Source of the DNA: Flammeovirgaceae bacterium BBD 1991-12
Lineage (GTDB): Bacteria; Bacteroidota; Bacteroidia; Cytophagales; Cyclobacteriaceae
Direction of reading: 5' to 3'
DNA: 64,000 bases
Assembly: GCA_001657315.1 (NCBI GenBank)
Contig: LYSV01000016.1
Span: 1 to 64,000, forward strand
The translations under genes and the position numbers were made by a program. Under the pieces are notes generated by a model that had not been told where the DNA came from, did no database searches, and saw only the letters and a program-made list of their open reading frames with translations. Positions 31,251-48,995 of this stretch are shown here, piece by piece (position 1 is the first letter of the stretch; each line of letters begins with the position of its first letter).

Positions 31251-31290
31251 GCAACATTGTTGCATTTATATCGTTGCATCAATAAATTTG
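31251..31290 (+). promoter_or_regulatory. Promoter with Zur-box-like palindrome ahead of ABC operon
   Basis: A TTG at 31260-31262, 20 bases, and an exact TAAATTTG at 31283-31290 form a Bacteroidota promoter; start of transcription would be about 31297, a few bases before the ATG at 31304. The palindrome GCAACATTGTTGC (31251-31263) overlaps the -33 element. Its extended form recurs at 48981-48995. A further half-site AATGTTGCAT occurs at 31093-31102. Assigning it to Zur rests on the downstream zinc-associated families. Confidence 0.7.
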
Positions 31291-31303
31291 CCCCTCGAAC
31301 ATT

Positions 31304-31930
31304 ATGCTGGTCACTCGCTCATTAACCTTCTCGTATGATCACCGGGCCACATTTCAGTTTCCGGACATTTCCCTGGAAGCCGGTAACGACTTATTGATCC
31401 TGGGAAAATCGGGCATTGGTAAAACTACGTTGCTGCATCTGATGGCAGGGCTGCTATTACCCATGGCTGGCCATGTAGAGTTGATGGGCACCACCCTTCA
31501 TACGTTATCTCCTGCCAAACTGGACCGGTTCCGGGGCAGGCACATTGGCCTTGTATTTCAGCGGCCACATTTTATCCACTCCCTGTCTTTACTGGAAAAC
31601 CTGGCACTGGTGCAATACCTGGCCGGGAAAAAACAGGATAAAGTGCGGACCAGGCAGGTACTTGAAAGTCTTGATATTGACCATAAGCGATATGACCGGC
31701 CTCACCTGCTAAGCCAGGGAGAACAACAGCGTGCCACCATTGCCATGGCCGTTCTTAACGATCCTCAACTTATCCTGGCGGATGAACCAACTTCAAGCCT
31801 CGATGACACCAACTGCCTGAACGTGGCCTCGCTGCTTAAGCAGCAAGCCTCCACCACAGGAGCACAATTAGTGGTCATCACGCATGATCACAGGTTGAAA
31901 GCACATTTTCAAAACTCAATTCTCCTATGA
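31304..31930 (+). CDS. ABC transporter ATP-binding protein (LolD/MacB class)
   Basis: A 208-aa ATPase with Walker A (LGKSGIGKTTLLHLMAGLLL, about residues 33-52), Q-loop (VFQRPHFI), signature (LLSQGEQQRATIA, about 134-146) and Walker B (LILADEPTSSLDD, about 155-167). It overlaps the following permease gene by four bases (ATGA) and together they make a complete export or mechano-type ABC system. Its promoter carries a Zur-box-like site, and the third gene encodes a DUF3299 protein, a combination seen in zinc-regulated transport loci of other bacteria. Substrate unproven. Confidence 0.9.
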   Translation: MLVTRSLTFSYDHRATFQFPDISLEAGNDLLILGKSGIGKTTLLHLMAGLLLPMAGHVELMGTTLHTLSPAKLDRFRGRHIGLVFQRPHFIHSLSLLENLALVQYLAGKKQDKVRTRQVLESLDIDHKRYDRPHLLSQGEQQRATIAMAVLNDPQLILADEPTSSLDDTNCLNVASLLKQQASTTGAQLVVITHDHRLKAHFQNSILL

Positions 31931-33192
31931 ATATTATTAAGCTGGGCTACAGAAATATGGCGGACCGTCCATTAAGTACGCTGCTAAGCCTGCTGTTGCT
32001 AACACTGGGCGTGGGTATGATCGCTTTGCTTTTGCAGGTTAACCGCCATATTCAGCAACAGATGGAGAACAATGTCCGGGGTATTGACATGGTGGTAGGC
32101 GCTAAAGGGAGCCCGCTGCAGCTCATCCTTTCAGCTGTTTACCACATTGATGCACCTTCAGGCAATATTTCCTTGCATGAGGCTGAACAGCTCAGGAAAA
32201 ACCGCCTGGTGGCTTCCGGCATCCCACTCTCCTATGGCGACAGTTACAAGGGCTACCGCATCGTTGGTACCGATCATCAATACCCGGAACTGTACAAAAC
32301 ATCAGTGTCCAAAGGACGACTTTGGCAGGAGCCCTTTGAGGTGACCATCGGTGCTACAGTAGCCCAAAACCTGGGCCTGGAGATAGGTGATACCTTTATG
32401 GGGGCTCACGGTATGGTGGAAGGGAGTGAAATCCATGACGAATATGCTTACCAGATCGTGGGAATACTGGATTACACCAATGCTGTGGTTGATCAGCTTA
32501 TTCTTACTGCCACGGAAAGCGTATGGGCGGTCCACCATCATGAAGAAGAAAAATCGGAAGACCACGCTGAGGAAGAAAGTCATGCACATGAAAGCGCTGA
32601 TGAAGAACATACCGGGACTACCACACATGATGATACTCAGGGATCTGAGCGTGAGATCACTGCCATGTTGATCCGGTTCAGAAGCCCAATGGCCATGGTA
32701 CAGCTTCCCCGAATGGTCAACGAGAACACCAACATGCAGGCAGCCGTGCCTGCATACGAAACCCATCGTTTGTTCAGCCTTATGGGAGTAGGGGTGGATA
32801 CCCTAAGCACCATTGCCCTGGTCATCATGGCGGTATCGGGACTCAGCGTATTTATAAGCCTGTACAACGCCTTAAAAGACCGGCAGTATGAAATGGCCCT
32901 GATGCGTACCTATGGGGCTACCCGATGGCAGCTGGTCAGGTTGGTGTTGCAGGAGGGATTGCTGCTTACAGGATCAGGTTTTCTGTTAGGCATATTTTTT
33001 AGCCGGGTAGGCCTTTTGCTGATATCCGGTTTAATAGAAGCCCGTTACCATTATTCGTTTTCGGGCTGGGAGATCATTAGGGAAGAATGGCAACTGCTGG
33101 CTGTCTCCCTCGTCATCGGGTTGCTGGCCTCTCTGCTCCCTGCCATTCGTACATTTAAAATCAACATTTCCAAAACATTGGCCTATGATTAG
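31927..33192 (+). CDS. FtsX-type ABC permease with His/acid-rich loop
   Basis: A 421-aa permease: one N-terminal helix (PLSTLLSLLLLTLGVGMIAL, residues 15-34), a periplasmic domain and three C-terminal helices (about 295-320, 345-370, 390-410). Family motifs are 'VGAKGSPLQLILSAVYHIDA' and 'YEMALMRTYGATRWQLVRLV'. Between about residues 200 and 240 the periplasmic domain carries an insert with ten histidines and many Glu/Asp (HHHEEEKSEDHAEEESHAHE), a typical metal-capturing stretch, supporting zinc as ligand or signal. It overlaps the ATPase upstream (ATGA) and the DUF3299 gene downstream (8 bases). Confidence 0.88.
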   Translation: MNIIKLGYRNMADRPLSTLLSLLLLTLGVGMIALLLQVNRHIQQQMENNVRGIDMVVGAKGSPLQLILSAVYHIDAPSGNISLHEAEQLRKNRLVASGIPLSYGDSYKGYRIVGTDHQYPELYKTSVSKGRLWQEPFEVTIGATVAQNLGLEIGDTFMGAHGMVEGSEIHDEYAYQIVGILDYTNAVVDQLILTATESVWAVHHHEEEKSEDHAEEESHAHESADEEHTGTTTHDDTQGSEREITAMLIRFRSPMAMVQLPRMVNENTNMQAAVPAYETHRLFSLMGVGVDTLSTIALVIMAVSGLSVFISLYNALKDRQYEMALMRTYGATRWQLVRLVLQEGLLLTGSGFLLGIFFSRVGLLLISGLIEARYHYSFSGWEIIREEWQLLAVSLVIGLLASLLPAIRTFKINISKTLAYD

Positions 33193-33619
33193 ACTAACGA
33201 TCATATTCTTGTTTTTTATTGTTACACCGGCAATGTCCCAGACCGGGATCTCATGGAATACACTGGATGATGTTCAATTTTCAGAGAAATACAGCGAAGA
33301 AGCCCAGGGCTACTATTATTATCCGAATTTTGGCAGCACGGTGAAGGCCCTGGAAGGCAAGCAGGTGTACCTTGAAGGCTACATGCTCGTAATCGATCCT
33401 GGGGAAGGCATTTATATTCTTTCCCGCTATCCTTATGCATCGTGCTTTTTTTGCGGTAGCGGAGGCCCGGAATCCATCGTTGAGTTAAAGCTTCTTCCCG
33501 ATCATCCTAAGTTCAAAATGGACCAGAGGATCACCATGCTGGGAACGTTGGAGCTTAATTATGATGACATTTACCAGTGCAACTACATATTGAAGGATGC
33601 CCGCGTATACAAAAGATAA
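33185..33619 (+). CDS. Secreted DUF3299-like protein
   Basis: A 144-aa periplasmic protein with a signal peptide (MIRLTIIFLFFIVTPAMS). The mature chain begins with the DUF3299 pattern 'ISWNTLDDVQF', then VKALEGKQVYLEGYMLVIDP, and has a distinctive LSRYPYASCFFCGSGGPES motif (about residues 80-98); the two Cys and nearby acidic residues could bind metal. In proteobacteria DUF3299 genes accompany zinc-responsive ABC operons. It overlaps the permease by 8 bases, so the three genes form one unit. Exact function unknown. Confidence 0.72.
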   Translation: MIRLTIIFLFFIVTPAMSQTGISWNTLDDVQFSEKYSEEAQGYYYYPNFGSTVKALEGKQVYLEGYMLVIDPGEGIYILSRYPYASCFFCGSGGPESIVELKLLPDHPKFKMDQRITMLGTLELNYDDIYQCNYILKDARVYKR

Positions 33620-33656
33620 GAACAAGCGGGCCAGGAATACTTCCATTGGTGTCTGC

Positions 33657-35615
33657 TTACTCTCTCATGACCAGTTCATCGATAAGGTTGAGCGTATCCG
33701 GGTTAAGCACCTTCATCGTTACGCGTTTCCCATCGATATAAATTAAACAAACTGCATTTTCCACACTGAAAGATTGGGTAAAGGAGCTCCAGGGTAGTTT
33801 TTCCTGAGCATAGTAAGGGGCGCCTGATGCCCCGTTGTTGATTTGATAGATCGGCCTGCTGAAGTCCATCTTTCCGTGTGGATAATTTTCCGGGTAGATC
33901 GGTACTTCATTGGTAAGTTTAAGCCAGTTGTAATTATGCTCATCACCTGTCAGTATCGCTACTACTTTTGTACTTTGGTTGGCGAGGATATCAAGGTATT
34001 CATCCCTTCTTTCGATGATCCCTTTATCCACAGGTTTACCCGCAATATATGGCCGGGGATCATTGTTCCCGCTGTACCACATATCATCACGACTATGTCC
34101 GCCATTGGGAAAAGCCGGGGTGTGTTGTGTCACAAATATATGGTCAATGTCCGGATCATTCTCGAAATTCTGAATGGTATTTCTCAGCCATTGTAACTGG
34201 TTATCCATCAGGAAGCCGTGCAATCCTCCGCTGGTGGATGGTTCCCGTTTCAATGTAGGCGCATACCAGTAATCGCTGTTGAGCACGATCATAGCTGCAT
34301 TATCATGTATATAGTAGTACACATTCTCCTTGTAGGAAGGGAAATCAGCACGGCGAGGATCGGGGTCGTATTTGCTTCCATCTTCACTTTCCGGGCCATT
34401 TTCAGGATGGACAAAAGCTTCTTGCATTACAACTTCCGCCGACTGCGTAGCAAAGGGGAACTTATCAATAAAGCCCACAGACTTCCCTTTTTCATCCCGA
34501 AAGATATATCCCAGTGCTTCGTGATTGCCCTGACCGACGTAGACCGGAATGTAATGCCAAAAAGGCTCTATGCTCTTTTTCCAGTTGGTAAGTTGTACAT
34601 GCTGCTCTTCCTTGTTGGACAAATACCCGTTGATCATGTCGCCGGTAAACTGGATAAATGCAGCTCCCTGACTGTAGGCCAGCGCAGCCATTTTTTTGGT
34701 TATGTAGGCATTGGCGCCATACAATTTTCGCTCACCACCTCCAGTGGCATGTCTGCTGTCGCTGGTGTAAGCAAACATAAAAGGTTTTCTGCTCCCTTTT
34801 TGCGGGGCAGTGGTAAAATGAAAGGACTGGGAAAGGTCACCGTAGGCAACGCTATAGGCGTATTGGGTACCAGGGTTCAGTCCGTCAATGGTGATTTCGT
34901 GATGTGTCGAGGTGTCCCTATCGGTGTATTTTTTCCCGTCTACCACCGCATGGGCCAGCACGGGCGCGGATGTTTCAAAGGAAATGGTCACGCTGTTGGG
35001 CTGCACATGGTTTACAAATGGCCCCTCATAGAGTGTCGGCACCACCTTGAAAGGCCCGGTACCGGTAGCAGACACCTCACCGTCAAACAGGATCAGGCCA
35101 TTCTTACCGATCAACCGATACCCGATAGTAAACTGCCCGGTCTCAGACCAGCCCACAAAATCATAGGGGTATTTGAAATCTTCTTTGATATTGATCTTGG
35201 CCTTTCCCTTTTCCAACACCTTGGTAAACCGGAATACTGGAAGAGGGTGTGGAGCTTTTCTATAGGGGATCATGCCATAGGTGATCGAGCCTTCCAGGTC
35301 ACCGAAGTCAAACATAATCCCGTCGGAAGTTCCTTCAGGATTGCCCAGGAGCCGGGGAAGGGTATACCGGGGTCCTGTGGTATCGGCAAAATAGCGTTTG
35401 TTCTCTTTTTCAAAATACAGGCGGCCTTCTGTATCGTAAGCTATGTTGCTGTAGCTTCCGGGTACCTGTCTGAGTTGGGACCGGGCTCCGGTAAGGATGA
35501 AAAAGCAGCATATGGAAACAACCGGGATCTTGTACATAGCAGAGCTTTGTCTCATCCTTTTCACTAGGTTTCCTTTGCTTTTCAAATTGTAGCGATATGC
35601 GGTAATTCTATTCAT
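33657..35615 (-). CDS. Secreted metallophosphoesterase (purple acid phosphatase-like)
   Basis: A 652-aa exported phosphoesterase. A fibronectin-like domain (about residues 205-275: VQPNSVTISFETSAPVLAHA, then GLNPGTQYAYSVAYGD) precedes a calcineurin-type domain with YTSDSRH (DxR variant of DxH), FTGDMINGY, VGQGNHEALG, TQHTPAFPNGGHSRDD and LTGDEHNYN, together the set of di-metal ligands. The frame starts at 35615, overlapping the upstream GTPase by 8 bases; a better signal peptide starts at the inner ATG 35555 (RQSSAMYKIPVVSICCFFIL), so the true start may be there. Last gene of the leftward zinc-associated run; it could salvage phosphate or need the metal supplied by the island. Confidence 0.83.
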   Translation of the reverse strand: MNRITAYRYNLKSKGNLVKRMRQSSAMYKIPVVSICCFFILTGARSQLRQVPGSYSNIAYDTEGRLYFEKENKRYFADTTGPRYTLPRLLGNPEGTSDGIMFDFGDLEGSITYGMIPYRKAPHPLPVFRFTKVLEKGKAKINIKEDFKYPYDFVGWSETGQFTIGYRLIGKNGLILFDGEVSATGTGPFKVVPTLYEGPFVNHVQPNSVTISFETSAPVLAHAVVDGKKYTDRDTSTHHEITIDGLNPGTQYAYSVAYGDLSQSFHFTTAPQKGSRKPFMFAYTSDSRHATGGGERKLYGANAYITKKMAALAYSQGAAFIQFTGDMINGYLSNKEEQHVQLTNWKKSIEPFWHYIPVYVGQGNHEALGYIFRDEKGKSVGFIDKFPFATQSAEVVMQEAFVHPENGPESEDGSKYDPDPRRADFPSYKENVYYYIHDNAAMIVLNSDYWYAPTLKREPSTSGGLHGFLMDNQLQWLRNTIQNFENDPDIDHIFVTQHTPAFPNGGHSRDDMWYSGNNDPRPYIAGKPVDKGIIERRDEYLDILANQSTKVVAILTGDEHNYNWLKLTNEVPIYPENYPHGKMDFSRPIYQINNGASGAPYYAQEKLPWSSFTQSFSVENAVCLIYIDGKRVTMKVLNPDTLNLIDELVMRE

Positions 35616-36588
35616 TTGTTTCTACGATATGCCGGTTAAACATCTTTTCAAATACTTTGCGTTTCAGCCCCCTGCCAATGAAAACCAACTTTCCTTCCCT
35701 GGCATCCCTTTCCTGCCATGGAGCACCGTCTGTGGCGATAAAGGTGCTTCGCGCAGACTGAAGCACTACCCGGTTGGGGTAATGAGGTATCGCAATAATA
35801 CCTTTGACACGATACACCTGGTGCCGATAGAGGTTCACTATTCTGTTCAGGTCCAGGGAGAGGTGATTCAGGTCCAGCGGATGAGGAAAAGTAAGCGTAA
35901 ATGTGGTGATCCTATGGCTGTTGGTTTCATGTTCATGATGGTGATGCTCATGGCTATGGACGTTTCCAATCGAGCGGGGCATGGTCGTACTTGTCTTCAT
36001 GATCTCCGCCACTGTAAAAACTCCCTGAGCCCCTGTAAAGACCGACGCATGGGGATTAATGTTTTCGACCAGGGATTTGATCTGTGGGACGTAGGCGTGA
36101 GATACAGTATCTGTTTTATTGATCAGAATGGCGTCCGCCAACGCCAGCTGTCGCAGGGCTTCTTCGGTTTCATCCAGCCACTCTTCCAGGAGGCCTGCAT
36201 CGGCCAGGCAAATGACCTGCGCAAGTTCGAAAACCTGTTCCACCCGTGGGTCTTCCAAAAAAACCTGGATAATGGAGCCGGGATCGGCAATACCGGTAGT
36301 TTCTATGACCAGTCGATCATATTGATCACGTCTTTTGGCAGCCTCTTCCAGCACATCCAGTAAGCCATCTGCCAGGGAGCAGCAGAGGCATCCGGCGCTA
36401 AGCTCGATCACCTCCTCCACTCCGTCGATGACCAGCCCTCCATCGATGTTGGTATCTCCGCATTCATTCTCAATGACCATGATCCGCTCGGGCAAACGCT
36501 CCCTGATGAAATGATTCAGGAAAGTGGTTTTGCCAGCGCCAAGGAAGCCTGTGATGATATGGACGGGTGTGCGATCTAAAGAGGTCAT
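35608..36588 (-). CDS. COG0523 (CobW/ZNG-like) metallochaperone GTPase, second copy type
   Basis: A GTPase of about 326 aa. Walker [21 protein letters not shown], the metal-binding CxCC motif LSAGCLCCSLADGLLD, 'ETTGIADPGSIIQVF' and the guanine motif LINKTDTV are present; a His-rich linker (HSHEHHHHEHETNSH, about residues 205-219) precedes the CobW_C domain. Such proteins deliver Zn to client enzymes under zinc shortage. The frame is open from 36645, but ATG at 36588 overlaps the hydrolase stop as TAATG and starts just before the Walker A, so I chose it. It is clearly distinct in sequence from the GTPase at 47180-48403. Confidence 0.9.
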   Translation of the reverse strand: MTSLDRTPVHIITGFLGAGKTTFLNHFIRERLPERIMVIENECGDTNIDGGLVIDGVEEVIELSAGCLCCSLADGLLDVLEEAAKRRDQYDRLVIETTGIADPGSIIQVFLEDPRVEQVFELAQVICLADAGLLEEWLDETEEALRQLALADAILINKTDTVSHAYVPQIKSLVENINPHASVFTGAQGVFTVAEIMKTSTTMPRSIGNVHSHEHHHHEHETNSHRITTFTLTFPHPLDLNHLSLDLNRIVNLYRHQVYRVKGIIAIPHYPNRVVLQSARSTFIATDGAPWQERDAREGKLVFIGRGLKRKVFEKMFNRHIVETNE

Positions 36589-37436
36589 TAAGGGGTAGTT
36601 AAAAAGTTCGTTAGCATCGCGTTGAACTCTTCCGGTTTTTCCCAAAACATCGCATGACTGGAGATGCCCTCAGCCCTGGCATGTGGAGTGTTTGCTTTTA
36701 GCCATGTTGCTGCCTGTTGGTACCAGGACGTTCTTACCATAAAAAGTGCGGGTATATCCGTGTTGAGAGAGGCTGCCTCCCTGGTGTAGTCAGAAGCCAG
36801 GCCATCTACATAAAGGCTCAGGGCCACCTGGGGAGGTGTCATTGATATCGCTTCATACATCCACTTCCTGGCCACACTGTCTGGAGGATCTTCGAACATC
36901 CAGTCAATGATATCATTAGGGTCGGAAAGCCGGGCGGTCAGACCTTTCAGACTGCTACGATAATCCTGGAAACTGCCGTATACCCATTCGGTGGCGACAT
37001 CTCCTACCCACTTCGGCGGTTCATCGATAAACACCAGCTTTCGGATGCGATCCGTACCAAAGGCACGCAGGTATTCATACATGGTGAGGCAACCACTTGA
37101 CCAGCCGATCAGCACTATGTTATCAAGTTTTTTCATTAGTAATAATGCTCTCAGGTCAGAAGCATGCGCAGCATAGATATTCCCGTGCGCTGTTTTATCC
37201 GACTTTCCCTGTCCTCTTGGGTCATAAGTGATGACATGGTAATCATCAGAAAAGTGCTTGGTCTGTTTTTCAAAAAAACGGCAAGTCATCGTCCAGCCCG
37301 GGATAAACACGAGTGCCTGTCCTTTACCCGTTTCTTCTACATAAAGCCGGGCGCCATCCTCCAGTTCCAGAAATTCCCCCTGCGCAAGCACCGGGTTAGT
37401 GATCAAACATACAAGGATGATGCTAAAAAGTCTCAT
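36588..37436 (-). CDS. Exported alpha/beta hydrolase
   Basis: A 282-aa hydrolase with signal peptide (MRLFSIILVCLITNPVLAQ). The fold's landmarks are the oxyanion segment FIPGWTMTCRFFE, 'YDPRGQGKSDKTAHGN', the nucleophile elbow LIGWSSGCLTMYEYL (Ser about 114), a late acid near 'IPALFMVRTSW' and the catalytic His in ISSHAMFWEKPEEFN. It probably acts on an ester or amide in the periplasm; substrate unknown. It overlaps the racemase-like gene by 14 bases and is coupled to the GTPase by TAATG, so it is part of the zinc-associated run. Confidence 0.82.
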   Translation of the reverse strand: MRLFSIILVCLITNPVLAQGEFLELEDGARLYVEETGKGQALVFIPGWTMTCRFFEKQTKHFSDDYHVITYDPRGQGKSDKTAHGNIYAAHASDLRALLLMKKLDNIVLIGWSSGCLTMYEYLRAFGTDRIRKLVFIDEPPKWVGDVATEWVYGSFQDYRSSLKGLTARLSDPNDIIDWMFEDPPDSVARKWMYEAISMTPPQVALSLYVDGLASDYTREAASLNTDIPALFMVRTSWYQQAATWLKANTPHARAEGISSHAMFWEKPEEFNAMLTNFLTTP

Positions 37437-38637
37437 ATACTCGTTTAGGAATGGATTCCTTGTAATTGATCTGTAAGTAATTATGTCTATTCACCAGCTT
37501 GCCAAAGCCTTCCGGGGTGATCTCTGCCCGGTCAGGACCGATCAATGTGGCTGCATCGCCAACGTTTACACGGGTCTTTTCACCAAGCGATACATTGGTG
37601 TGACTGGCATTTACATTTACTACCGGGTAAAGTTCCTCACCGAGCAGCACTTTTGCACCATTTTCTGCTCCACTATCATATCCATCTGCCCAACCTATGG
37701 GAAGTGTTGCAATCCATTCGTCCTTCTTTACTTTATAGAAGCGGGAAAAGCCTATAGTATCACCGGCTTTAAGTTTTTCGAGCCGGATCACCGGCGCTTT
37801 CAACCGGTAAGGGATCTTCAACGGATACTGCTTTGCTTCAGGCATATCCGCCATGGGGAAAGAACCATGAAGGAGAATGCCGGGCCGTACAGCTTCCTGA
37901 TGGGATCCGGGCAGGTCCAGGAGTGAATAAGAGGGTGCGAGGTGTTTCAGGCCCGGGGAAATACCTTTTTTTTCCAAATTCTTTATAACCTCTTCAAAAC
38001 GCACGATCTGCTCCTGGGCAAAATCCCGTGGAGTGGTCAGGGTGGAGAAGGTCTGTTCGATACTCAGACCGGGGGCATTGGCGATTTCCCCGGCTAACCT
38101 AACAGTTTCGCGGTAGGGAATGCCCATCCTGCCAAGTCCGGTATCCACATAAAGTGCGACCTTTACCGTATCTGTAGCGCTCCCCACCATTTGCCTGATC
38201 TTTTTGAGTGATGACCGGGAGTAAATGCTCAAGGTAATATCCTGTCGAATAAGCTCCTGCGCCAGGCTTGTATCAAAATCATTCATGAGCAGAACAGGCT
38301 TGGTGACACCTGCAGATCGTATTGCCAGGGCACTTTCATCTTTGACCACAGCCATGCCAAGCACAGAGTTTGAAGTGTTTAGTATTTCTGCAACCTGTAC
38401 CACTCCAAGACCATAGGCGTTGTTTTTCAACACAGCCATAACAGGTCTGCTCCCGGCCATCTGGTTGATGAGTGAGGCATTATGTAAATAAGCTGCTTTA
38501 GAGAGTTCTATCCACGGTTTGCTTTCAGGGGGATATGCGGTACCTGTTAATGAATGCGCCAGGCCCTGGCCACTCACCGAACCAAATACGGCAACAACTC
38601 CCAGGTGCTTAACAAATTGTCTTCTTTTCAACTCCAT
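37423..38637 (-). CDS. Tat-exported alanine racemase-like protein with altered active site
   Basis: About 404 aa. The N-terminus MELKRRQFVKHLGVVAVFGS is a twin-arginine signal, so the folded, PLP-loaded protein would be sent to the periplasm. PLP lysine is in PVMAVLKNNAYGLGVVQVAE; 'VDTGLGRMGIPY' and 'TLTTPRDFAQEQI' follow the alanine racemase barrel, then the C-terminal beta domain. In the usual IATVPIGYADGY motif the catalytic Tyr is Trp here (LPIGWADGYDSGAENG, near residue 315), and the later CMDQ motif is replaced by VNASHTNVSL. Broad-specificity or non-racemising PLP chemistry is possible. Start 38637 chosen over 38652 because of the Tat motif. Within the zinc-associated run. Confidence 0.85.
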   Translation of the reverse strand: MELKRRQFVKHLGVVAVFGSVSGQGLAHSLTGTAYPPESKPWIELSKAAYLHNASLINQMAGSRPVMAVLKNNAYGLGVVQVAEILNTSNSVLGMAVVKDESALAIRSAGVTKPVLLMNDFDTSLAQELIRQDITLSIYSRSSLKKIRQMVGSATDTVKVALYVDTGLGRMGIPYRETVRLAGEIANAPGLSIEQTFSTLTTPRDFAQEQIVRFEEVIKNLEKKGISPGLKHLAPSYSLLDLPGSHQEAVRPGILLHGSFPMADMPEAKQYPLKIPYRLKAPVIRLEKLKAGDTIGFSRFYKVKKDEWIATLPIGWADGYDSGAENGAKVLLGEELYPVVNVNASHTNVSLGEKTRVNVGDAATLIGPDRAEITPEGFGKLVNRHNYLQINYKESIPKRVYETF

Positions 38638-38666
38638 TGGTACAAAGCTCAATATTTTAAAGTCAG

Positions 38667-39335: not shown

Positions 39336-39477
39336 ATCGGCCGTTTATATCATCGACAGTCACACCTTTTTTTAAGCCCTCACAGTTATTGAGCACATGA
39401 TTGAGCAGTGTGGTTTTGCCGGCGCCCGGGAAGATGCCGGGAATGGTAACGGAAAATTTTTTCTTCAGTAGATCCAT
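39322..39477 (-). pseudogene. Truncated duplicate of the 47-kb COG0523 GTPase (N-terminus only)
   Basis: A 51-codon frame reads MDLLKKKFSVTIPGIFPGAG, then [17 protein letters not shown] and ends after about 15 unrelated residues. It mirrors the start of the GTPase at 47180-48403 ([36 protein letters not shown]). The similarity continues for about 130 bases upstream of both ATGs (39478-39610 and 48404-48530), showing a segmental duplication including leader sequence. The remaining 85% of the gene is missing; DUF1826 begins in its place. Confidence 0.85.
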
Positions 39478-39620
39478 TTTTCCTGATTCGTTTTTCAGTG
39501 TTTTTATTTAAAGACCTGTTCGGATACACAATATTTGACAATGCTGATAGGGTCAGGTGATCCTCAGCGACGGTAAATGCACAGCATACCGGGCAGCTCC
39601 CGGAGGGATGATCAAAAAAA

Positions 39621-40001: not shown

Positions 40002-40007
40002 AAAGAG

Positions 40008-41072: not shown

Positions 41073-41159
41073 TGTCTTATCAACTCTTTCAGAGAAATGC
41101 GACATAAGCAGGCTCATATCATACTTACAGATTTGGATATCTATAATTTTCATGTATAG

Positions 41160-42509
41160 CTACATTTCAGTTCTTATTGACAAACCGGATAATCCAAGAA
41201 AAAGCATAATACCTACGCATAACGGCACTAAGCTTCCCCACCAATCAAATGATCGTTTTTCATCTTTGAAATACACAGGTTTGAACAGATCCCAGTTTAC
41301 TTCCTCTGCAGTGACCTGGGAAAATATCTTCGGATAAAAATACAGGCGTGTGTTCTCGTGGAAGGTATTGGTATGCTGGAGAAAATTCAAATGATTGATC
41401 AGGCTGGTACCCGCTATATCATTGAAAACCAACTGGGTGTGCATGGAGGGTACAAACTTTGCCCACTTCCGGCTTAAATGCGCTCGTTGCATGATTTTGG
41501 TCTGCATAGACGCACTTTCTTCACGGGATTCTTCGTCACCCAGATGCTGCATGGCATAGTACCATAACCAGCTAAAGCCCTCTTCCGGCGGATAGCCATA
41601 CGACTTGAATTGCGGATAGCGATCATAAAACTTTTCCATGGTTCCCCGTTTTTCCATATCCCATTTTTTATGATACCCATCGCGCTGTTCGATCATGGTG
41701 GTTAAAGCCTCTGGAACAGGGTATTGGCTTGTAATGATATTATTAACCAATGAAGGTGATAAGACCACCAAGGTCAACCAGAATGAGAGCAGGACTAAGG
41801 CGTTGAAGTTAGAAGCGCGTTTCAGGGAGATGATCCAAAAACTGAGCGAAAACCAAAATAACAGATAAACAAGACCCATGACAAAGAATGCAAAGGATAA
41901 CTCTCCCCATGGGATGTTCAATACCATGCTGGCTATCAGGTACAGGAAGATCATCAGAACCAACAATAAAATGAGCCTTACAAGGAGTTTTGACAATAGG
42001 AATTTCAGCTTAGATGTAGACATCACACTCACTATTTTCCATGTGCCTGTTTCCTCTTCTTCTGACCGCAGGTTGTAAGTAAAAGCTATGATTAAAAGTG
42101 GAAAAACGTAAATCAGTACAAAGCTCAGGTCCAGGTTTCCATATAGTAGCTTAGTCGGGTTGACCAGATCCGTATCGTACTTTTGCCCCTCAAGGGTGAG
42201 GATCTTCACATGCTGTACACTTGGGTTCAGGTCCTTTTGTCCAATTGATAATGCGGCCAGCGGATCATATTTATTGACCAGCGTAAACTTCAAGTAGTAA
42301 AGCAACAGCCCAAGGTCGTCACTATGAAACCGGATGTTTCGCTCGATATGGCCTGACTGCTTCTCTGCTACTTGTGCAGCCACTTTTTCCTGTTGGTTCA
42401 GGAATTGCTTACCGGTAACAATGCTGATTAAGCCCAGGAGCAAGGCCAGGGCAAGGCCTAGCTGGCAGGTCCTTGTTCTTAAAAATTGCCTGAACATCAA
42501 TAGATACAT
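41160..42509 (-). CDS. ABC transporter permease, DUF3526 type (subunit 2)
   Basis: A 449-aa inner-membrane protein with an N-terminal helix (CQLGLALALLLGLISIVTG), a periplasmic loop and a cluster of five helices (about residues 130-270), then a large loop and a final helix near the C-terminus (VPLCVGIMLFLGLSGLSIR). The conserved cytoplasmic 'LRSEEEETGTWKIVSVMSTS' motif contacts the ATPase, as in ABC-2 type exporters. Pairs with the next gene upstream (3-base gap) and the ATPase at 46469. Likely exports or extracts an unknown substrate. Confidence 0.82.
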   Translation of the reverse strand: MYLLMFRQFLRTRTCQLGLALALLLGLISIVTGKQFLNQQEKVAAQVAEKQSGHIERNIRFHSDDLGLLLYYLKFTLVNKYDPLAALSIGQKDLNPSVQHVKILTLEGQKYDTDLVNPTKLLYGNLDLSFVLIYVFPLLIIAFTYNLRSEEEETGTWKIVSVMSTSKLKFLLSKLLVRLILLLVLMIFLYLIASMVLNIPWGELSFAFFVMGLVYLLFWFSLSFWIISLKRASNFNALVLLSFWLTLVVLSPSLVNNIITSQYPVPEALTTMIEQRDGYHKKWDMEKRGTMEKFYDRYPQFKSYGYPPEEGFSWLWYYAMQHLGDEESREESASMQTKIMQRAHLSRKWAKFVPSMHTQLVFNDIAGTSLINHLNFLQHTNTFHENTRLYFYPKIFSQVTAEEVNWDLFKPVYFKDEKRSFDWWGSLVPLCVGIMLFLGLSGLSIRTEM

Positions 42510-42512
42510 AGC

Positions 42513-43964
42513 TTAAATGGCTTTTGCTGTTTTGGAATAGTGAACTACCATCCCTATGGAGAGGGACAGCCAAAGTAAAATTGAGCCTATAGACAGGGCT
42601 TCATTGCCGAGCGTTTTGGCAAGGCTCAGGTAATGATGCTGGAAATCAGGCATGTTTTTCCATTCCTTGCTGTCGACTACATGCGCCTTTCCTTCAGAGC
42701 CGCTCAACTTCTTTGGGCTAATGTATTTCATTTGAAGCTCATTCAATTTTTGAGACATATTGTATCGATAACGTTCTGCCTGGCTCTGGAAGTCCACATA
42801 GGACTCAAAGTCGGTGCCACAGAGTGCCATCGACAGGTTTTTGACCGCCAGGTATGGGTTGACGATTGCGAGCCACCTTGTTAACTGGTTCTGATTTCTA
42901 TACTGTCCAAGTAATTGGCCCTGATGCTTCTTGTAGATCTCCGTGTCAATTTTTTCTCCCTGTGCCATTACAAAACCCCCATAGTTGAAGGGAAGCTCGG
43001 AGACATCCCCTACCTGATGTGCCTTAAGCACGGAATCTCTCAAAGCATTGAAATAAGGGTCGCTGGGGTCGTGGCTGTCTCCGTGTTCAATGACCTCCTC
43101 CTCTATCGCGGCTCTAAACTCCAATTTAGTAGGCGTCGGATGGAAATGAGCCCCAAGTGCCTGTGCTGTCCTTGGGACAAACACGGTCATTAATAACCAC
43201 AGGCCCAACAGCTTCAGCAGGGCATTTTTGGAAGACCGACTGCTTACGGAAACAACAATGGTGATGAGGCATAAAATAAAAGCGAATGTCACATAGGCCA
43301 GGCTGATCATAATCAGCCTTCCCCATTCGTCAGGAGTGGTGTGTCCTTCTCTTATCAATAAGACTACTGTTGTGATGATGAAAGGGAAAATAAACAGGCA
43401 GGATATAGCCAGCAGCCCCAGTGACCGCCCAAACAAGATCTCTTTCCAGGTAGCCCCCTGTGTCAGCAATATTTTCAATGTGCCATTCTCACGATCTGAG
43501 ACAATAGCGGAGTACCCAATAAAAAAAATGATCAAAGGGAGGATCAACTGAAGGATCATAGCCATGTGCAATTCCCCAAACCGGAGTATGCCGGTAGAAA
43601 AACCCGCTTCTGAAAAGTTGACCATGTTTTGCCTGTGTGCTTCTAAAAACACCGCATTCCCTGTGTAGCTCTCAATACCGAAATCGAAAATGCTTAGGGG
43701 GTGCTTTAACCGGAAGGCAAATGTCCCAAAATGCGCCATCCGGTGAGGGTGCTTGTCGGGATTCCCTTCCCAACTTTCACGAGCCTTCTCCTGGTGGTCC
43801 GTTCGAAAATGGTTTTGGTCATGGTAGCTGACCCCACTGTAGGCAGCATAAAAAAGGAGTACTACCATTATGCCCATTACCAGGTGTAGCAACCTTGATT
43901 TGAAGATGCTCACCCAAAATTGTTTGGCGATCAGTAATAATACTTCTATACGCATGGTGATCAA
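42513..43964 (-). CDS. ABC transporter permease, DUF3526 type (subunit 1)
   Basis: A 483-aa homologue of the neighbouring permease with the same layout: N-terminal helix (SRLLHLVMGIMVVLLFYAAY), a periplasmic domain, five central helices with the 'SDRENGTLKILLTQGATWKE' ATPase-contact motif (about residues 155-175), a periplasmic loop of about 150 residues and a last helix (SIGSILLWLSLSIGMVVHYS). The two form a heterodimeric ABC-2 exporter core. The ATG overlaps the receptor gene's stop by four bases, so receptor and exporter are translated together. Confidence 0.82.
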   Translation of the reverse strand: MITMRIEVLLLIAKQFWVSIFKSRLLHLVMGIMVVLLFYAAYSGVSYHDQNHFRTDHQEKARESWEGNPDKHPHRMAHFGTFAFRLKHPLSIFDFGIESYTGNAVFLEAHRQNMVNFSEAGFSTGILRFGELHMAMILQLILPLIIFFIGYSAIVSDRENGTLKILLTQGATWKEILFGRSLGLLAISCLFIFPFIITTVVLLIREGHTTPDEWGRLIMISLAYVTFAFILCLITIVVSVSSRSSKNALLKLLGLWLLMTVFVPRTAQALGAHFHPTPTKLEFRAAIEEEVIEHGDSHDPSDPYFNALRDSVLKAHQVGDVSELPFNYGGFVMAQGEKIDTEIYKKHQGQLLGQYRNQNQLTRWLAIVNPYLAVKNLSMALCGTDFESYVDFQSQAERYRYNMSQKLNELQMKYISPKKLSGSEGKAHVVDSKEWKNMPDFQHHYLSLAKTLGNEALSIGSILLWLSLSIGMVVHYSKTAKAI

Positions 43965-46459
43965 AATTTGTAGGTAACAGTCAGTAAAGCATTACGAGGT
44001 GCGCCTGGGAATAACCGGGCATAGTTGAGCGCTCCCACCCAGAAGATCTCATCCAACAGGTTGTTCATTTTTGCCATCAACTGTAGGTTTGAATTGTTGG
44101 GTTGATAATAAACTGCTGCATCAAATACGGTGAAAGCAGGGACAATAAAATCTCTTGTAAACCATGGCACCCTGTCTCCACTGTGTTGAACTCCTAGCCC
44201 AAGGCCTAACCCGCTGAGGGCGCTGTTATTATTAAAATCATACCTCATCCACAAGTTGGCATTATTGGCCGGTGTGTTTTCTTTTCGTTCACCAACCAAT
44301 GTTTCATCAGCATCTTCTACAATTTCCGCGTCAATAAAGCTGTAAGAGGCATTTACCTGTAAGTTTGGAAGCACATAGCCCGCCACATCCCATTCAAAAC
44401 CCCTACTTCTATCCGCGCCTCTTTGTACAAGTAAGTCAGGGTCCAGCTCCGAGGGGATCAAAATGTTTTCCTGGTTGATCTCGTAACACGCCACTGTCAT
44501 GGTGATATCACCATCAAAAAACACCCCTTTGGCTCCTATTTCTTTTAAATCACTGATCAATGGGTCGAACTGAGCAGCGGAATTGGGGTCCCAGAAAAAG
44601 CGCTCCGTATTAGGCATCAGGTCGGTTGTGTTTGATTGGGGCTGAAAACCTTCCAGGTAAGTGGCATATACATTGATGTTTTTGGTCAGTTCGTAGCTTA
44701 AGCCAAGCCTTGGTATAAATGCTTCATTGCGAAAAACCTGCTCATCGGCCTGTTCGTAGTTGGTGACGTCTCTAAACCATTCATACCTTACGCTCAGCAA
44801 GGCGGTAAGCTTCCCAACTTTCAATTGTTCCTGGATATAGGCAGCATGGGTGACCGATAAGTTGGCAGGGATGGCAAAAATAGAGTTGATCACATAACCC
44901 TGTATGTTTCTGATGGCATTGGATGGGTTGCTCAGGTTAAAGTGGTCTACGTTGGGCCTGGGCAGGCTCACGCCATCGATTTCAATGAACTGAAAGTCAG
45001 CGGCATCGGCAGGGTCATAAGTTCTGCTTGTGGTCCCATCGTTTCTTAGAAAGCCTCTGGCAGTGTTCTGTCCACCACCGTTGGTGCGATGCCATCTATG
45101 CAAATCATAACCCACCAGTAGCCTGTGCCCAATGGTGCCTGACATGAGGTCGAAGTTGAAATAAGCGTTGAGGTTGTCTACATCCCAGAGTTGCTGACGC
45201 TGAGAAAACCGTAAAGCCATCAGGTTATCCACCGTGTTCCCCATACTATCAACGGCAAACCTGTTTTCGGCCCGGTGTTCCTGCAAGTCCTCCCGCCATA
45301 TTTGCTTCATGTAGGCACCGTTGAAACTGGCTTTTTCAGAAAACTTCTCGGAGAGGCTGGTGGTCATGATCCATTGTTCGGATTGGAAAAAATCATTAGT
45401 CGCCCCAAGGTTTAAGCTGATAGGAGTACTGTTTAAATCAGTTTCACCCGGAATAGCACCAAATATAGGTTGTCCCCTGTCCAGGTTACCTAAAGAATTG
45501 TCGTAGATCAGCTCTACGTTGATTGCCGTTTTTTCATCAGGTACGTAACTAAAAGATGGAGACACCAACAGTGCATTGTTTTGAACAAGGCTCCTGAATG
45601 ATTCAGCCCTTTGCACACCTGCATTAAGCCTGTAAAGTATCTTGCCTTTTTTATCCAACGGGCCCGTAAAATCAAGTGCACCTCGCAGGGTGCTAAAGCT
45701 TCCTACACTCATACTTACCTCCTTGCGGTCCTCGGAAAGTGGTTTTTTTGTTACCATGTTAATGCTACCCCCGGGATCTACACTTGAGAATGTCACCGAA
45801 GCAGGACCTTTCAATACCTCAACCCGCTCGATATTGGAAGTGATCGGCTGAAGAAAATAGAACTGCCTGGTCCTCATTCCGTTGAGTATCTGACCGGATT
45901 CGTTTTGGCTAATGCCCCGAATATTAAAATGATTGTAGAAACTTGAGTTGGAGACACCACTTACGGTTTTAACGGCATCAGCTATTTGGAATGCCTGCCG
46001 GTCTGTTATGAGTTCTTTGGTGATCGCAATCAGCGCCTGCGGAAGCTCCTTGTTTTTGATACCGGTCTTGGTTGCAGAAAAAGAATAATCACTGTTGTAG
46101 TCTTGTTGTGCTCGGCCGATTATTTCTACCCCCTGAAGTTCTAATTTGTCTTCCTCTACTCTGATTTCTCCCAGATCGTATGTTTTATTTTCGTCAATTC
46201 TCAACGTCTGCCTATGGGTTTTAAAACCAATGTATCGTAATTCCAGTTGATAATCTCCCATGTCGACCAGTGAAATGTTAAAGCCACCATTTACATCAGT
46301 AATTGTTCCTTCTACCTGATCATCTTTGGTAAGGGAAACGGTAACTCCCGGAAGGGTCTCTCCTTTAGGGTTCAGTATTCTTCCCTTAACCTGAATTTGA
46401 GCAAAAGAATGTGCAGTCACAATTAAAGATGATACCAAAAACAAATATTTGGGCTGCAT
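43961..46459 (-). CDS. TonB-dependent receptor, siderophore-receptor type, in zinc-associated operon
   Basis: An 832-aa outer-membrane receptor. Signal peptide (QPKYLFLVSSLIVTAHSFAQ), CarboxypepD_reg domain (about 22-105: GRILNPKGETLPGVTVSLTK), plug (about 125-245: 'ALIAITKELITDRQAFQIAD', 'NIRGISQNESGQILNGMRTR', 'RVEVLKGPASVTFSSVDPGG') and a barrel ending APRNALLTVTYKF. The plug resembles ferric-siderophore receptors, yet the operon is rich in zinc-shortage families, so a zinc-chelate or metallophore is the more likely cargo. It lies between an ABC ATPase and two exporter permeases. Confidence 0.87.
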   Translation of the reverse strand: MQPKYLFLVSSLIVTAHSFAQIQVKGRILNPKGETLPGVTVSLTKDDQVEGTITDVNGGFNISLVDMGDYQLELRYIGFKTHRQTLRIDENKTYDLGEIRVEEDKLELQGVEIIGRAQQDYNSDYSFSATKTGIKNKELPQALIAITKELITDRQAFQIADAVKTVSGVSNSSFYNHFNIRGISQNESGQILNGMRTRQFYFLQPITSNIERVEVLKGPASVTFSSVDPGGSINMVTKKPLSEDRKEVSMSVGSFSTLRGALDFTGPLDKKGKILYRLNAGVQRAESFRSLVQNNALLVSPSFSYVPDEKTAINVELIYDNSLGNLDRGQPIFGAIPGETDLNSTPISLNLGATNDFFQSEQWIMTTSLSEKFSEKASFNGAYMKQIWREDLQEHRAENRFAVDSMGNTVDNLMALRFSQRQQLWDVDNLNAYFNFDLMSGTIGHRLLVGYDLHRWHRTNGGGQNTARGFLRNDGTTSRTYDPADAADFQFIEIDGVSLPRPNVDHFNLSNPSNAIRNIQGYVINSIFAIPANLSVTHAAYIQEQLKVGKLTALLSVRYEWFRDVTNYEQADEQVFRNEAFIPRLGLSYELTKNINVYATYLEGFQPQSNTTDLMPNTERFFWDPNSAAQFDPLISDLKEIGAKGVFFDGDITMTVACYEINQENILIPSELDPDLLVQRGADRSRGFEWDVAGYVLPNLQVNASYSFIDAEIVEDADETLVGERKENTPANNANLWMRYDFNNNSALSGLGLGLGVQHSGDRVPWFTRDFIVPAFTVFDAAVYYQPNNSNLQLMAKMNNLLDEIFWVGALNYARLFPGAPRNALLTVTYKF

Positions 46460-46468
46460 AGTGATCTG

Positions 46469-47164
46469 TTATATTGTTTTCAGATAAAGCTCTTGTAGCT
46501 CGTTTGCACTGATATTCGTTGTTTTAGTAGAGTGAATGAGTTTTCCTTCTTTCATGATCCCGATCCTGTTACCTACATTAACTGCATTGAAAATGTCATG
46601 GGTAGCCATGAAAACAGACTTGTCTTCTTTGGCCAGCTCTTTACATATGGATGTGAACTCATCCGTTGCCTTGGGATCTAAACCAGAGGTAGGCTCGTCC
46701 ATGAATATGACTTTCGCTTTTTTCGATAATGCTATGGCTATTCCTACTTTTTGTCGCATTCCCTTTGAATAGGAGGAAAGTTTCTTTTCGTGGTCCTTTT
46801 CATCCAGGCCTGACTTATTCAGTAATGCTGTCAGTTCATTTTTGGTATGCTTATGCCCTGAAAGTCTGCTAAAAAACTTCAGGTTCTCAATGCCATTCAT
46901 GTTTCCATATAGCTGAACCACTTCCGGTATATAGGCAATCATTTGGTTTGTTATTCGCTTTTTCTGCCCAACCTCAACCCCGTTGATCAACGCCTTGCCA
47001 CTGGTAGCACCGATCAGTCCCAGAAACAGATTGATAGTAGTTGTCTTGCCAGCACCGTTTTGACCAAGCAAACAATACACTTCTCCCTGATCCACTGTCA
47101 GGTTTAAATTGACAAGTGCATCATACCTCCCATACCTTTTTGATAGATTAATAGCTTCCAGCAT
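46469..47164 (-). CDS. ABC transporter ATP-binding protein (ABC-2 exporter class)
   Basis: A 231-aa ATPase with Walker A (LLGQNGAGKTTTINLFLGLI, about 32-51), signature (LSSYSKGMRQKVGIAIALSK), Walker B (KVIFMDEPTSGLDPKA) and H-loop (FMATHDIFNAVN). CcmA/drug-exporter class, matching the two DUF3526 permeases downstream in the same run. It follows the COG0523 GTPase by 15 bases and precedes the TonB receptor by 9 bases. Confidence 0.92.
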   Translation of the reverse strand: MLEAINLSKRYGRYDALVNLNLTVDQGEVYCLLGQNGAGKTTTINLFLGLIGATSGKALINGVEVGQKKRITNQMIAYIPEVVQLYGNMNGIENLKFFSRLSGHKHTKNELTALLNKSGLDEKDHEKKLSSYSKGMRQKVGIAIALSKKAKVIFMDEPTSGLDPKATDEFTSICKELAKEDKSVFMATHDIFNAVNVGNRIGIMKEGKLIHSTKTTNISANELQELYLKTI

Positions 47165-47179
47165 ATCTGATAGTTTTTT

Positions 47180-48403
47180 TCATATCGGCCAATCGTCAAT
47201 GAACCTATTCCCTGATTGCATGCCTGTGATATCCAGATCATTGACGAGGCATTTGTCCAGTTCAGCGGTGATCTTTTCCTTTTCCATGTCCATTCCAATG
47301 AATACTAATTCGCTCATACGGTCGCCCCACTGCTTATGCCATTTCGCCTGGATCTCCTCCTGGTTTTCCAGGTAGGCGGGGCTCATGGCCCGTTCTTTCA
47401 TGGGCACACTGGCCCACCACCGGCCGTAGATCTCCGCTTTCATTGATCCCCCGGCCTGGCTCCACAATATGGCATGGTCCGGCCGGGATGCCAACCAGAA
47501 GATCCCTTTGCTGCGCACCACTGCTGGAGGAAAATGACGGCTGACGTATTGCAGGAAACGCTGCGGATGGAAGGGCTTTGCCTGCCGGTAAACAAATGAG
47601 CTGATACCGTACTCTTCTGTTTCCGGGCTATGTGCGATACCCTTCTGTGCCAGCTCCAGCTCCTTCTGCCATCCTGCCGATTGCTCGGCAATTTCATAAT
47701 CAAACAAGCCTGTATCCAGGATTTCCTTTGGGTCAATCTTACTGTGGGTGGTGCGAATGATCCTGGCAGTAGGGTTTAGCTTGTGCAGTGTTTTTTCCAG
47801 TAAGCCCAATTGGTTTTCAGTCACCAGGTCTGATTTGTTCAGGATGATCACGTTGGCAAATTCCACCTGGTCGGTCAGCAGGTTGACAATGGAACGCTGA
47901 TCTGCCTGGTCGTCCGTCATGCCTCGACTCACAATAGTGTCAGCGCTGCCGAAGTCATTAAAAAAATTGAAGGCATCCACCACGGTGACCATCGTGTCCA
48001 GCCGGCTTATTTTGGTAAGGTCGTACAATTCATCTCCTGTGGCAAAAGAAAAGGTCTGGGCTACCGGTATAGGCTCGGAGATCCCCGTGCTTTCGATCAG
48101 CAGATAATCGAACTTTTTCATTTTGGCCAGCTTCTCCACTTCGATCATCAGATCTTCACGAAGTGTACAGCAGATGCACCCGTTACTCATTTCCACCAGT
48201 TTTTCATCTGTACGGGAAAGTTTGGTTCCGTTGGCAACGAGTTTTTCATCGATGTTCACTTCACTCATATCATTGACGATCACGGCTACTTTTAAGCCCT
48301 CACGGTTATTGAGGACATGATTGAGCAGCGTGGTCTTACCGGCACCCAGGAAACCGCTGAGAACGGTAACGGGAAGTTTTTTCTTTTTCTTCAATAGATC
48401 CAT
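47180..48403 (-). CDS. COG0523 (YciC/ZNG-like) metallochaperone GTPase
   Basis: A 407-aa GTPase of the size of the YciC/ZigA group. Walker [21 protein letters not shown] (about 12-31), metal motif [20 protein letters not shown], '[20 protein letters not shown]', guanine motif '[10 protein letters not shown]' and a CobW_C domain in the last third ([20 protein letters not shown]). Such proteins hand zinc to essential enzymes when it is scarce and are classic Zur targets. First intact gene of the leftward run; about 580 bases upstream lies a Zur-box-like palindrome (48981-48995), with a receptor remnant between. Its 5' end is duplicated at 39322-39610. Confidence 0.92.
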
Positions 48404-48603
48404 TTTTCCTGATTTGTTTTCCTGTGTTTTTTCTTTAAAGACTTGTTCATATATGCAATATTCGACTGTGTTGACAGGGTCGTGTGATCCTCAATGACAG
48501 TGCCGGGCTGCTCCCGGCTTCGAATATCATCAATCCAGGTACTGTTTGTGTATTGTTTCTCCAAAGCGTTTTCATTCGAAAGGAAGTGTATTTGATATTT
48601 ATT

Positions 48604-48902
48604 TCACAGGAATAAGTAGTTCAGTTTGATACCTGCGTAGTAGTTGCGATCCATGGCTGGATCGAAGAAGCCGCCAAACCCGGAGTTCAAGCCATGCATC
48701 TGGCTATACTCGTTGTCCAGTGCGTTATTAATCCCGCCATAAAGGTTGATCCGAAATGTATCTCCCAGCTTCCTTTCCATCCCTGGTTTTACATCGAGTA
48801 ACTGATAACTGTTATCGGTAGCATCATTCGCATTATTCAGATAGATCTCATCAAAAAAGCTGTAGTCCCAAAGAAATACATGCCAATCGATGATCTTACG
48901 TC
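48604..48902 (-). pseudogene. C-terminal remnant of a TonB-dependent receptor
   Basis: On the minus strand about 95 codons read as the last barrel strands of a TonB receptor: DWHVFLWDYSFFDEIYLNNA, then 'DNSYQLLDVKPGMERKLGDT', NLYGGINNALDNEYSQMHGL and DRNYYAGIKLNYLFL before TGA at 48604-48606. Everything upstream of this is gone, and the fragment lies only about 80 bases from the Zur-box-like palindrome, so a deletion has brought the promoter close to the tail. It was probably the original first gene of the zinc-associated operon. Confidence 0.8.
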
Positions 48903-48980
48903 AACACCTGTGACCACCGCTTTGAGCCTATTTGGATTATGAAATTTACCATGACGAAAGTATGGCAAAATAAAATTATT

Positions 48981-48995
48981 TGCAACAATGTTGCA
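48981..48995 (-). promoter_or_regulatory. Zur-box-like palindrome upstream of zinc-associated run
   Basis: TGCAACAATGTTGCA, a perfect 15-bp palindrome, shares GCAACATTGTTGC (other strand) with the site at 31251-31263. It lies upstream of the receptor remnant and the twelve-gene leftward run, so one regulator can control both ends of the 18-kb island. The reader is inferred to be Zur from the genes it precedes. Confidence 0.68.

Follow-up and report, generated by a model that had tools for sequence, protein, structure and literature searches.

Gene sets that answer zinc shortage have been described in several bacteria. In Caulobacter crescentus, the znuK-znuGHI genes (CC1517-CC1520) encode a TonB receptor (znuK) and an ATP-binding cassette (ABC) system consisting of an ABC-2 ATPase and two permeases (znuGHI); they are induced by zinc depletion, and Zur binds and represses them via a palindrome in the promoter (PMC4176598; here and below, papers are cited for the passages concerned). 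Vibrio ZrgABCDE, which includes an ABC ATPase, a permease and a DUF3299 protein, is induced by zinc shortage and belongs to the Zur regulon (PMC9817125). Haas et al. reported in 2009 that Zur sites are followed by COG0523 genes, together with DUF1826 genes and zinc-enzyme paralogues (ThrRS, CysRS) (PMC2770081); the word "Bacteroidetes" is absent from the text of that paper. ZigA is named for Acinetobacter (PMC6103462).

Here we describe a gene island that occupies about 20 kb of a 64,000-nucleotide stretch (the window) of contig LYSV01000016.1 from Flammeovirgaceae bacterium BBD 1991-12 and comprises two convergent operons of three and twelve genes. Judged from sequence comparisons, it is very probably a zinc-limitation island controlled by a Zur-type repressor of the Fur family that would act on the palindrome TGCAACANTGTTGCA. 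Taken one by one, Zur regulons, COG0523/DUF1826 clusters, znuGHI and Zrg have been described before (PMC2770081, PMC6103462, PMC4176598, PMC9817125), but the switch and the combination seem to be new for Bacteroidota: in the open-licence literature searched, including the relevant passages of PMC11960050 and PMC9976891 and with most subscription journals outside its scope, we found no description of this operator with this gene combination, or of a Zur regulon, in Bacteroidota, and no paper on DUF3526. In a preliminary description of this DNA, no described system with the full composition of the island was known; none was found here either, although both transport modules have counterparts in the Caulobacter and Vibrio systems.

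The palindrome and its promoter context

The sequence GCAACATTGTTGC occurs without mismatch at 31251-31263 on the plus strand and at 48982-48994 on the minus strand, the latter inside TGCAACAATGTTGCA (48981-48995). Both palindromes are thus located where the preliminary description had placed them, and the two converging operons with 15 genes that it had recognised were recovered as well. No other palindrome without mismatch is present in the window, and matches with up to three mismatches are not in excess there (26 found, 22.0 expected). Genome-wide (8.59 Mb), GCAACANTGTTGC was found at 25 places when one mismatch was allowed, compared to 4 for the reversed pattern. Sixteen of these 25 places are promoter positions, distributed over six contigs: C2 (5), C18 (3), C203 (3), C100 (2), C266, which is the contig of the window (2), and C52 (1). 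Zinc-type genes adjoin 13 of the 16, including the two in the window.

Among the other members is a palindrome-led operon on contig C2 (66543-73853), which encodes a MerC protein, dCTP deaminase, ThrRS, GTP cyclohydrolase I (FolE), a Fur-family protein, CysRS (cysS) and a COG0523 protein. Its ThrRS is a second copy, 63% identical to the one encoded on contig C20. dCTP deaminase is a zinc-independent enzyme, and in this operon it could spare a zinc-dependent deaminase. On contig C52, the palindrome is located 24 bases ahead of the likely start of a ZIP transporter gene, and the palindromes on C18, on C203 and at the end of C2 adjoin genes for TonB receptors, confirmed by Pfam on all three contigs, and lipoprotein-like genes. 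A second DUF3526 module (an ATPase and two permeases) on contig C120 (1-4400) has a weaker palindrome, TGCAATTGAGTTGCA, at position 230. The preliminary description had proposed a genome search in which hits should cluster at zur, at ribosomal paralogues and at znu genes; 13 of the 25 places are indeed at zinc-type genes or paralogues typical of Zur regulons, a Fur-family gene included, while none lies within 11 kb around the ZnuA-family gene; ribosomal paralogues lay outside the search.

Bacteroidota promoters consist of a -33 element (TTTG or TTG) and a -7 element (TAnnTTTG) 19-21 bases away. We examined 140 flanks belonging to 72 distinct palindromes; duplicates were dropped, and flanks shorter than 58 bases were excluded from the background. 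A -7 box matching in at least five of six letters starts 17 or 18 bases past the palindrome in 31 cases, where the frequency at other offsets predicts 4.0. It is present in 27 of the 72 distinct sites and missing in 45. At operator 1, the left palindrome of the window, TAAATTTG (31283-31290) is found at distance 18 toward the ABC operon on the right, and the opposite strand, facing the permease gene at 28569-30989, has TATCTTTG at distance 17, both with six of six letters; at operator 2, the right palindrome, TACTTTCG is located at distance 18 (five of six letters) toward the operon that starts with a ZigA-like gene. With the -7 box 17-18 bases off, the -33 TTG falls within the gene-side half of the palindrome, and binding of a dimer would shut the promoter. 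The palindrome is, by this prediction, a repressor operator that overlaps promoter elements. At several promoters palindromes are paired at a spacing of 37-39 bases (C2 66543/66581, C2 80005/80042 and C18 23941/23979 in the same genome, contig C601 25090/25129 in relative G001 and contig C117 3527/3565 in relative G016), which suggests two dimers per promoter.

The palindrome is conserved beyond this genome. The 15-mer TGCAACANTGTTGCA with at most one mismatch occurs at 163 places in 38 genomes (the genome of the window and 37 relatives), compared to 11 for the control, and is present in 31 of the 38 genomes, our own counted. Among 18 stretches of relatives with a DUF3526 module, 16 contain the palindrome, the exceptions being L067 and L069 (L063, which continues L062, was left out of this count, and L074 from our own genome has none at this threshold). 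We further inspected loci around homologues of the first DUF3526 permease in GTDB genomes of Fulvivirga, Reichenbachiella, Algoriphagus, Aquimarina, Zobellia, Maribacter, Tenacibaculum, Chitinophaga and others. In the best 80 of 506 confirmed loci, 74 palindromes were found in 48 loci, compared to 5 for the control; here, up to one mismatch to TGCAACANTGTTGCA was accepted, or two if the site was near-symmetric, whereas promoter boxes were counted for sites with at most one mismatch only. Operators, regulon, promoter geometry, gene families and co-occurrence were all shown by computation.

Gene content and relation to known transport systems

Gene families were assigned with Pfam and NCBIfam profiles. 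The features of the island are as follows:

28569-30989, minus strand: MacB/FtsX-type duplicated permease, divergent from operator 1
31250-31264: operator 1, predicted Zur-type, CGCAACATTGTTGCA, covering the -33 region of the rightward promoter, with -7-like boxes on both sides
31304-31930, plus strand: LolD-like ABC ATPase (ZrgC-like)
31927-33192, plus strand: MacB/FtsX permease with a histidine-rich loop (ZrgB-like)
33185-33619, plus strand: small exported-looking protein, DUF3299-like (ZrgE-like), its own sequence without Pfam match
33657-35615, minus strand: calcineurin-like metallophosphatase, final gene of the minus-strand operon; purple-acid-phosphatase N-terminal domain slightly below cut-off
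35608-36645, minus strand: second COG0523 (CobW) GTPase, with a histidine-rich stretch
36588-37436, minus strand: alpha/beta hydrolase
37423-38652, minus strand: alanine racemase, export-like N-terminus judged by eye
38667-39335, minus strand: DUF1826 protein
39325-39590 (approximate limits), minus strand: COG0523 gene-start fragment with leader, a partial duplicate of the start of 47180-48403
39621-40001, minus strand: MerC-family small membrane protein
40008-41153, minus strand: AstE/AspA-type deacylase
41160-42509, minus strand: ABC-2 permease with DUF3526, second subunit (ZnuI-like)
42513-43964, minus strand: ABC-2 permease with DUF3526, first subunit (ZnuH-like), with invariant H78, E108 and H110; fold nearest to NosY
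43961-46459, minus strand: TonB-dependent receptor, siderophore type (in ZnuK-like position)
46469-47164, minus strand: ABC ATPase of the ABC-2 transporter (ZnuG-like)
47180-48403, minus strand: COG0523 GTPase, ZigA-like, below the NCBIfam NF038288 cut-off (552.3 bits, cut-off 600)
48607-48834, minus strand: TonB receptor remnant (C-terminal part) that separates operator 2 from the ZigA-like gene
48981-48995: operator 2, predicted Zur-type, TGCAACAATGTTGCA, with a -7-like box toward the minus-strand operon

The three genes of the plus-strand operon (31304-33619) overlap by 4 and 8 bases, and the twelve genes of the minus-strand operon (48403 down to 33657) touch or overlap with the exception of one gap of 285 bases between the MerC and DUF1826 genes; the 3' ends of the two operons are separated by 37 bases.

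The right-hand operon resembles znuK-znuGHI of Caulobacter (PMC4176598) in that it combines a TonB receptor, an ABC ATPase and two ABC-2 permeases, here with DUF3526, in one cluster behind a promoter palindrome. This likeness to CC1517-CC1520 is one of architecture. In contrast to the window, the Caulobacter operator is of the TGTTAT...ATAACA type (PMC4176598), and the window adds a ZigA-like gene, MerC, DUF1826, an AstE-type gene, the Zrg-like ABC system and others to the set. DUF3526 was found in one of 14 control genomes, that of Caulobacter. The set of TonB receptor, ATPase and two DUF3526 permeases is also encoded on plasmids of the Proteobacteria Eleftheria and Blastomonas, and a Methylocystis plasmid contains the ABC part, without a TonB receptor in the stretch examined (4 of the 12 plasmid records with a DUF3526 match were examined). 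In the best 80 of the 506 loci, with genes labelled by their best match at E 1e-8, the core is near-constant (ATPase 77, TonB receptor 76, first DUF3526 permease 80, second 79), and accessory genes are less frequent: AstE-type 19, MerC-like 17 of the C2 type and 3 of the window type, DUF3299-like 14, ZigA-like 13, ZrgC-like ATPase 13, FolE 11 and Fur-like 10.

The left operon, with its ATPase and FtsX-type permease, resembles ZrgB, ZrgC and ZrgE of Vibrio (PMC9817125); the likeness of its third protein to DUF3299 is below threshold and seen in a relative's copy only (15.1 bits, cut-off 22), so that the DUF3299 family named in the preliminary description is touched by that copy, while 33185-33619 itself has no Pfam match. 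No match to the ZrgA (DUF2796) and ZrgD (DUF2607) families was detected among the 15 genes of the window, and we regard the left operon as Zrg-like rather than as a member of that system. In L065, a stretch on the same contig as L176, the genes for the ABC-2 ATPase and the two DUF3526 permeases come immediately after a ZrgB/C/E-like trio, and a MerC gene is oriented divergently; such a trio adjoins the DUF3526 module in L065/L176, L172, L223 and others. These arrangements argue that the two operons belong together; the island is a mosaic. The COG0523 and DUF1826 families and the ThrRS and CysRS paralogues of the window and its regulon are shared with the described Zur-regulated clusters, whose operator and partner genes differ (PMC2770081).

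Neither ABC machine resembles a classical metal importer, one being NosFY-like (ABC-2 with DUF3526) and the other MacB/Lol-like. H78, E108 and H110 of the first DUF3526 subunit are invariant in three alignments (20, 28 and 6 rows) that include Proteobacteria. The structural model of this permease has a mean predicted local distance difference test (pLDDT) score of 81.7, but residues 97-130, which include E98, E108 and H110, score below 50, and the geometry of the metal site is thus unreadable from the model. NosY of NosDFY takes ranks 1-11 among solved structures, in a weak alignment (best E 7e-4, template modelling score 0.36 normalised to the query, root mean square deviation near 20). NosDFY is a copper ABC transporter, whereas the metal of the island is taken to be zinc; no match to the partner families NosD and NosL was found among the 15 genes of the window, so the likeness is one of fold alone.

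The limits of the island and its internal scars can be traced with the help of relatives. Among the candidates scored in 37 relatives (at most 26 of up to 140 per genome, E 1e-150), the permease at 28569-30989 has one close match (61%), in relative G003 (L075), where the gene is located in a palindrome-led stretch between an AstE-type and a ZigA-like gene. We thus draw the island from about 28.6 kb; it probably reaches left of 31251 to this divergent gene. The extent of 31251-48995 given earlier holds for the palindromes and operons and probably has to be extended on the left to 28569-30989. At the other end, the genome of G013, a near relative, carries another DUF3526 module, its second, in which a receptor remnant lies between the palindrome and the ZigA-like gene (L062:10183-10329), and the remnant at 48607-48834 is 72% identical to it over 50 residues. 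Because the window keeps only a remnant of a G013-like receptor, a deletion is suggested to have brought operator 2 close to the ZigA-like gene. The fragment at 39325-39590, between the MerC and DUF1826 genes, is 79% identical over 201 bases to the start of the ZigA-like gene and is the scar of a local rearrangement.

Candidate repressor and alternative explanations

Six Fur-family genes are present in the genome, and their best NCBIfam models, all below cut-off, are Fur for C142 and C2:75597, PerR for C117, Zur for C173 (50 bits, cut-off 167), PerR for C2:70821 (39 bits), which is part of the palindrome-led C2 operon, and Fur for C21 (41 bits). Among solved structures, the C173 protein is closest to 4mtd, E. 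coli Zur, followed by 2o03, M. tuberculosis FurB. In a quick tree of 53 of the Fur-family matches, genes from 13 of the 14 same-genus genomes searched cluster with the C173 protein (support 91), while the fourteenth, G003, is represented in a neighbouring group. In three relatives (L134, L137, L150), a Fur-family gene of the wider clade is immediately preceded by a palindrome (1, 2 and 2 mismatches). The C173 protein is thus the best candidate repressor, and its binding to the palindrome is predicted from these comparisons. Perhaps a separate Fur-family clade (L146, L149, L152, L153, L157, L160 and, by similarity, L076:15928-16386), several members of which are located on contigs with palindromes and DUF3526 operons, represents a dedicated second Zur. 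Control of both ends of the island by a Zur-type repressor, as suggested in the preliminary description, is well supported by sequence comparison.

We infer the metal, the response to it, the identity and binding of the repressor and the direction of transport as follows. With sufficient zinc, a dimer of the Zur-type Fur-family protein on TGCAACANTGTTGCA would overlap the -33 element and block transcription. Under zinc shortage the repressor would be released, and both convergent operons would be transcribed, as would, probably, the divergent permease gene at 28569-30989. The TonB receptor would then carry zinc, perhaps in chelated form, through the outer membrane, and the NosFY-like ABC-2 machine with its ATPase and two DUF3526 permeases (with their conserved histidine and glutamate residues) as well as the Zrg-like ABC system with its ATPase, His-loop permease and DUF3299-like protein would pass it on, while the COG0523 GTPases would allocate zinc inside the cell.

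Several observations weigh against control of the island by zinc through a Zur-type repressor. Of the 16 promoter-type places, three adjoin genes without a clear zinc role (two on contig C100 and C2:74983, which heads a gene for a 181-residue protein without Pfam match). Nine of the 25 places appear to be background, 8 being inside open reading frames (C157 included) and one being intergenic (C149). No palindrome was found within 11 kb around the single ZnuA-family gene detected in the genome (C65:28059), which may serve manganese or have other control. Operator 2 is located 577 bases before the first intact gene, with the receptor remnant in between, and the gap of 285 bases precedes the last five genes of the minus-strand operon. 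Counting sites with up to two mismatches, 9 of 16 sites in the genome have no -7 box at 17-18 and 5 of 16 have a box with six or five of six letters on one or both sides; the binomial p for the -7 box overstates independence as sites from related genomes were pooled; and 32 of the best 80 of 506 loci have no palindrome. No palindrome was found at the C173 gene in the stretch examined (L254), and because its clade includes the paralogues C2 and C21, which score best, weakly, as PerR and Fur, the regulator is not pinned down.

A neighbour of the ZnuA-family gene is partly masked in the sequence. On contig C100, a LanC/LanB-type lanthipeptide cluster that includes a C39 ABC transporter has one palindrome beside it (27525) and another inside it (29871). 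As a leftward operon shares the palindrome at 27525 and is its likelier target, we do not claim this cluster for the regulon, although zinc control of the peptide product is possible; the leftward operon encodes a lipoprotein and a YCF48-like protein, and judged by eye a look-alike follows a palindrome in relative G006 (L066).

Among the alternatives, it is a serious, if less favoured, possibility that only the cores are regulated by zinc, and that the racemase, hydrolase and phosphatase genes are unrelated arrivals downstream, so that the two palindromes frame no single unit. Matches to the racemase in 57 relatives do not exceed 32% identity; apart from the racemase itself, 395 Bacteroidota genomes (our own included) yield a single strong match, and the 4 kb examined there contain no island gene. 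No racemase beside zinc genes was found elsewhere, the surroundings of the matches in the 57 relatives not included. Hydrolase, DUF1826 and racemase genes are found 2, 1 and 0 times in the best 80 of 506 loci, and the duplication relic at 39325-39590 marks a join. However, the tail genes overlap each other and include a second COG0523 gene and DUF1826, families reported downstream of Zur sites (PMC2770081). The tail of racemase, hydrolase and phosphatase is not conserved with the island, this exoenzyme and racemase part being its least certain portion, and the racemase, hydrolase, deacylase and phosphatase remain unexplained by a zinc-limitation island. The racemase and the deacylase, which share an operon, might alternatively make or trim a zinc chelator that is exported by the ABC-2 transporter and retrieved as a complex by the siderophore-type receptor. 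ABC-2 transporters are often exporters, but no recognisable metallophore synthase is encoded among the 15 genes, the DUF3526 permease best resembles NosY, and related islands lack the racemase, on which the core thus cannot depend; such a metallophore system is unlikely, and nothing was found in support of the export component that the preliminary description had included.

The operator could also belong to another Fur-family metalloregulator responding to iron (Fur), peroxide (PerR) or manganese, with the island serving iron or manganese. The TonB receptor scores above the cut-off of the siderophore-receptor model TIGR01783 (272 vs 223.5 bits), and the genome encodes Fur-like (C142, C2:75597) and PerR-like (C117) proteins, to which the Fur-family gene in the palindrome-led C2 operon, weakly best as PerR, can be added. 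The regulon members, in contrast, are typical of Zur regulons, i.e. ZIP, ZigA-like, second ThrRS, CysRS, FolE and DUF1826 (PMC2770081, PMC6103462), and the Zur-like C173 protein is encoded in the genome. After comparison of the Fur-family model scores and solved structures, an iron or peroxide regulator was ranked low, and we consider this alternative even slightly less probable than a metallophore system. A palindrome that arose by chance or as a structural repeat, with no part in regulation, would agree with the chance-level number of loose matches in the window alone, but this reading is practically negligible and was rejected on the counts in the genome (25 vs 4) and in the 38 genomes (163 vs 11) and on the fixed spacing to the -7 box. 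Regulation by zinc through a Zur-type repressor thus remains the reading we prefer.

Implications for zinc handling in Bacteroidota

NosDFY does not act as an importer; it spends ATP on providing a periplasmic enzyme with copper. Given the likeness to NosY, both ABC machines of the island might, by analogy and tentatively, be mechanotransducers that hand zinc from the outer membrane receptor to extracytoplasmic carriers or enzymes, with H78, E108 and H110 as a docking site; the island would then allocate zinc in the periplasm rather than serve uptake alone, and such periplasmic allocation would be widespread in Bacteroidota and would correspond to "znuGHI" in Proteobacteria. This view is rather doubtful at present. 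ZnuGHI and Zrg, zinc-induced ABC machines of which little is understood, are linked here because a relative joins them in one operon. For Bacteroidota, the analysis provides a concrete operator together with a candidate for its repressor and a set of conserved targets, and the conserved histidines make zinc handling by ABC transporters of a non-importer type testable.

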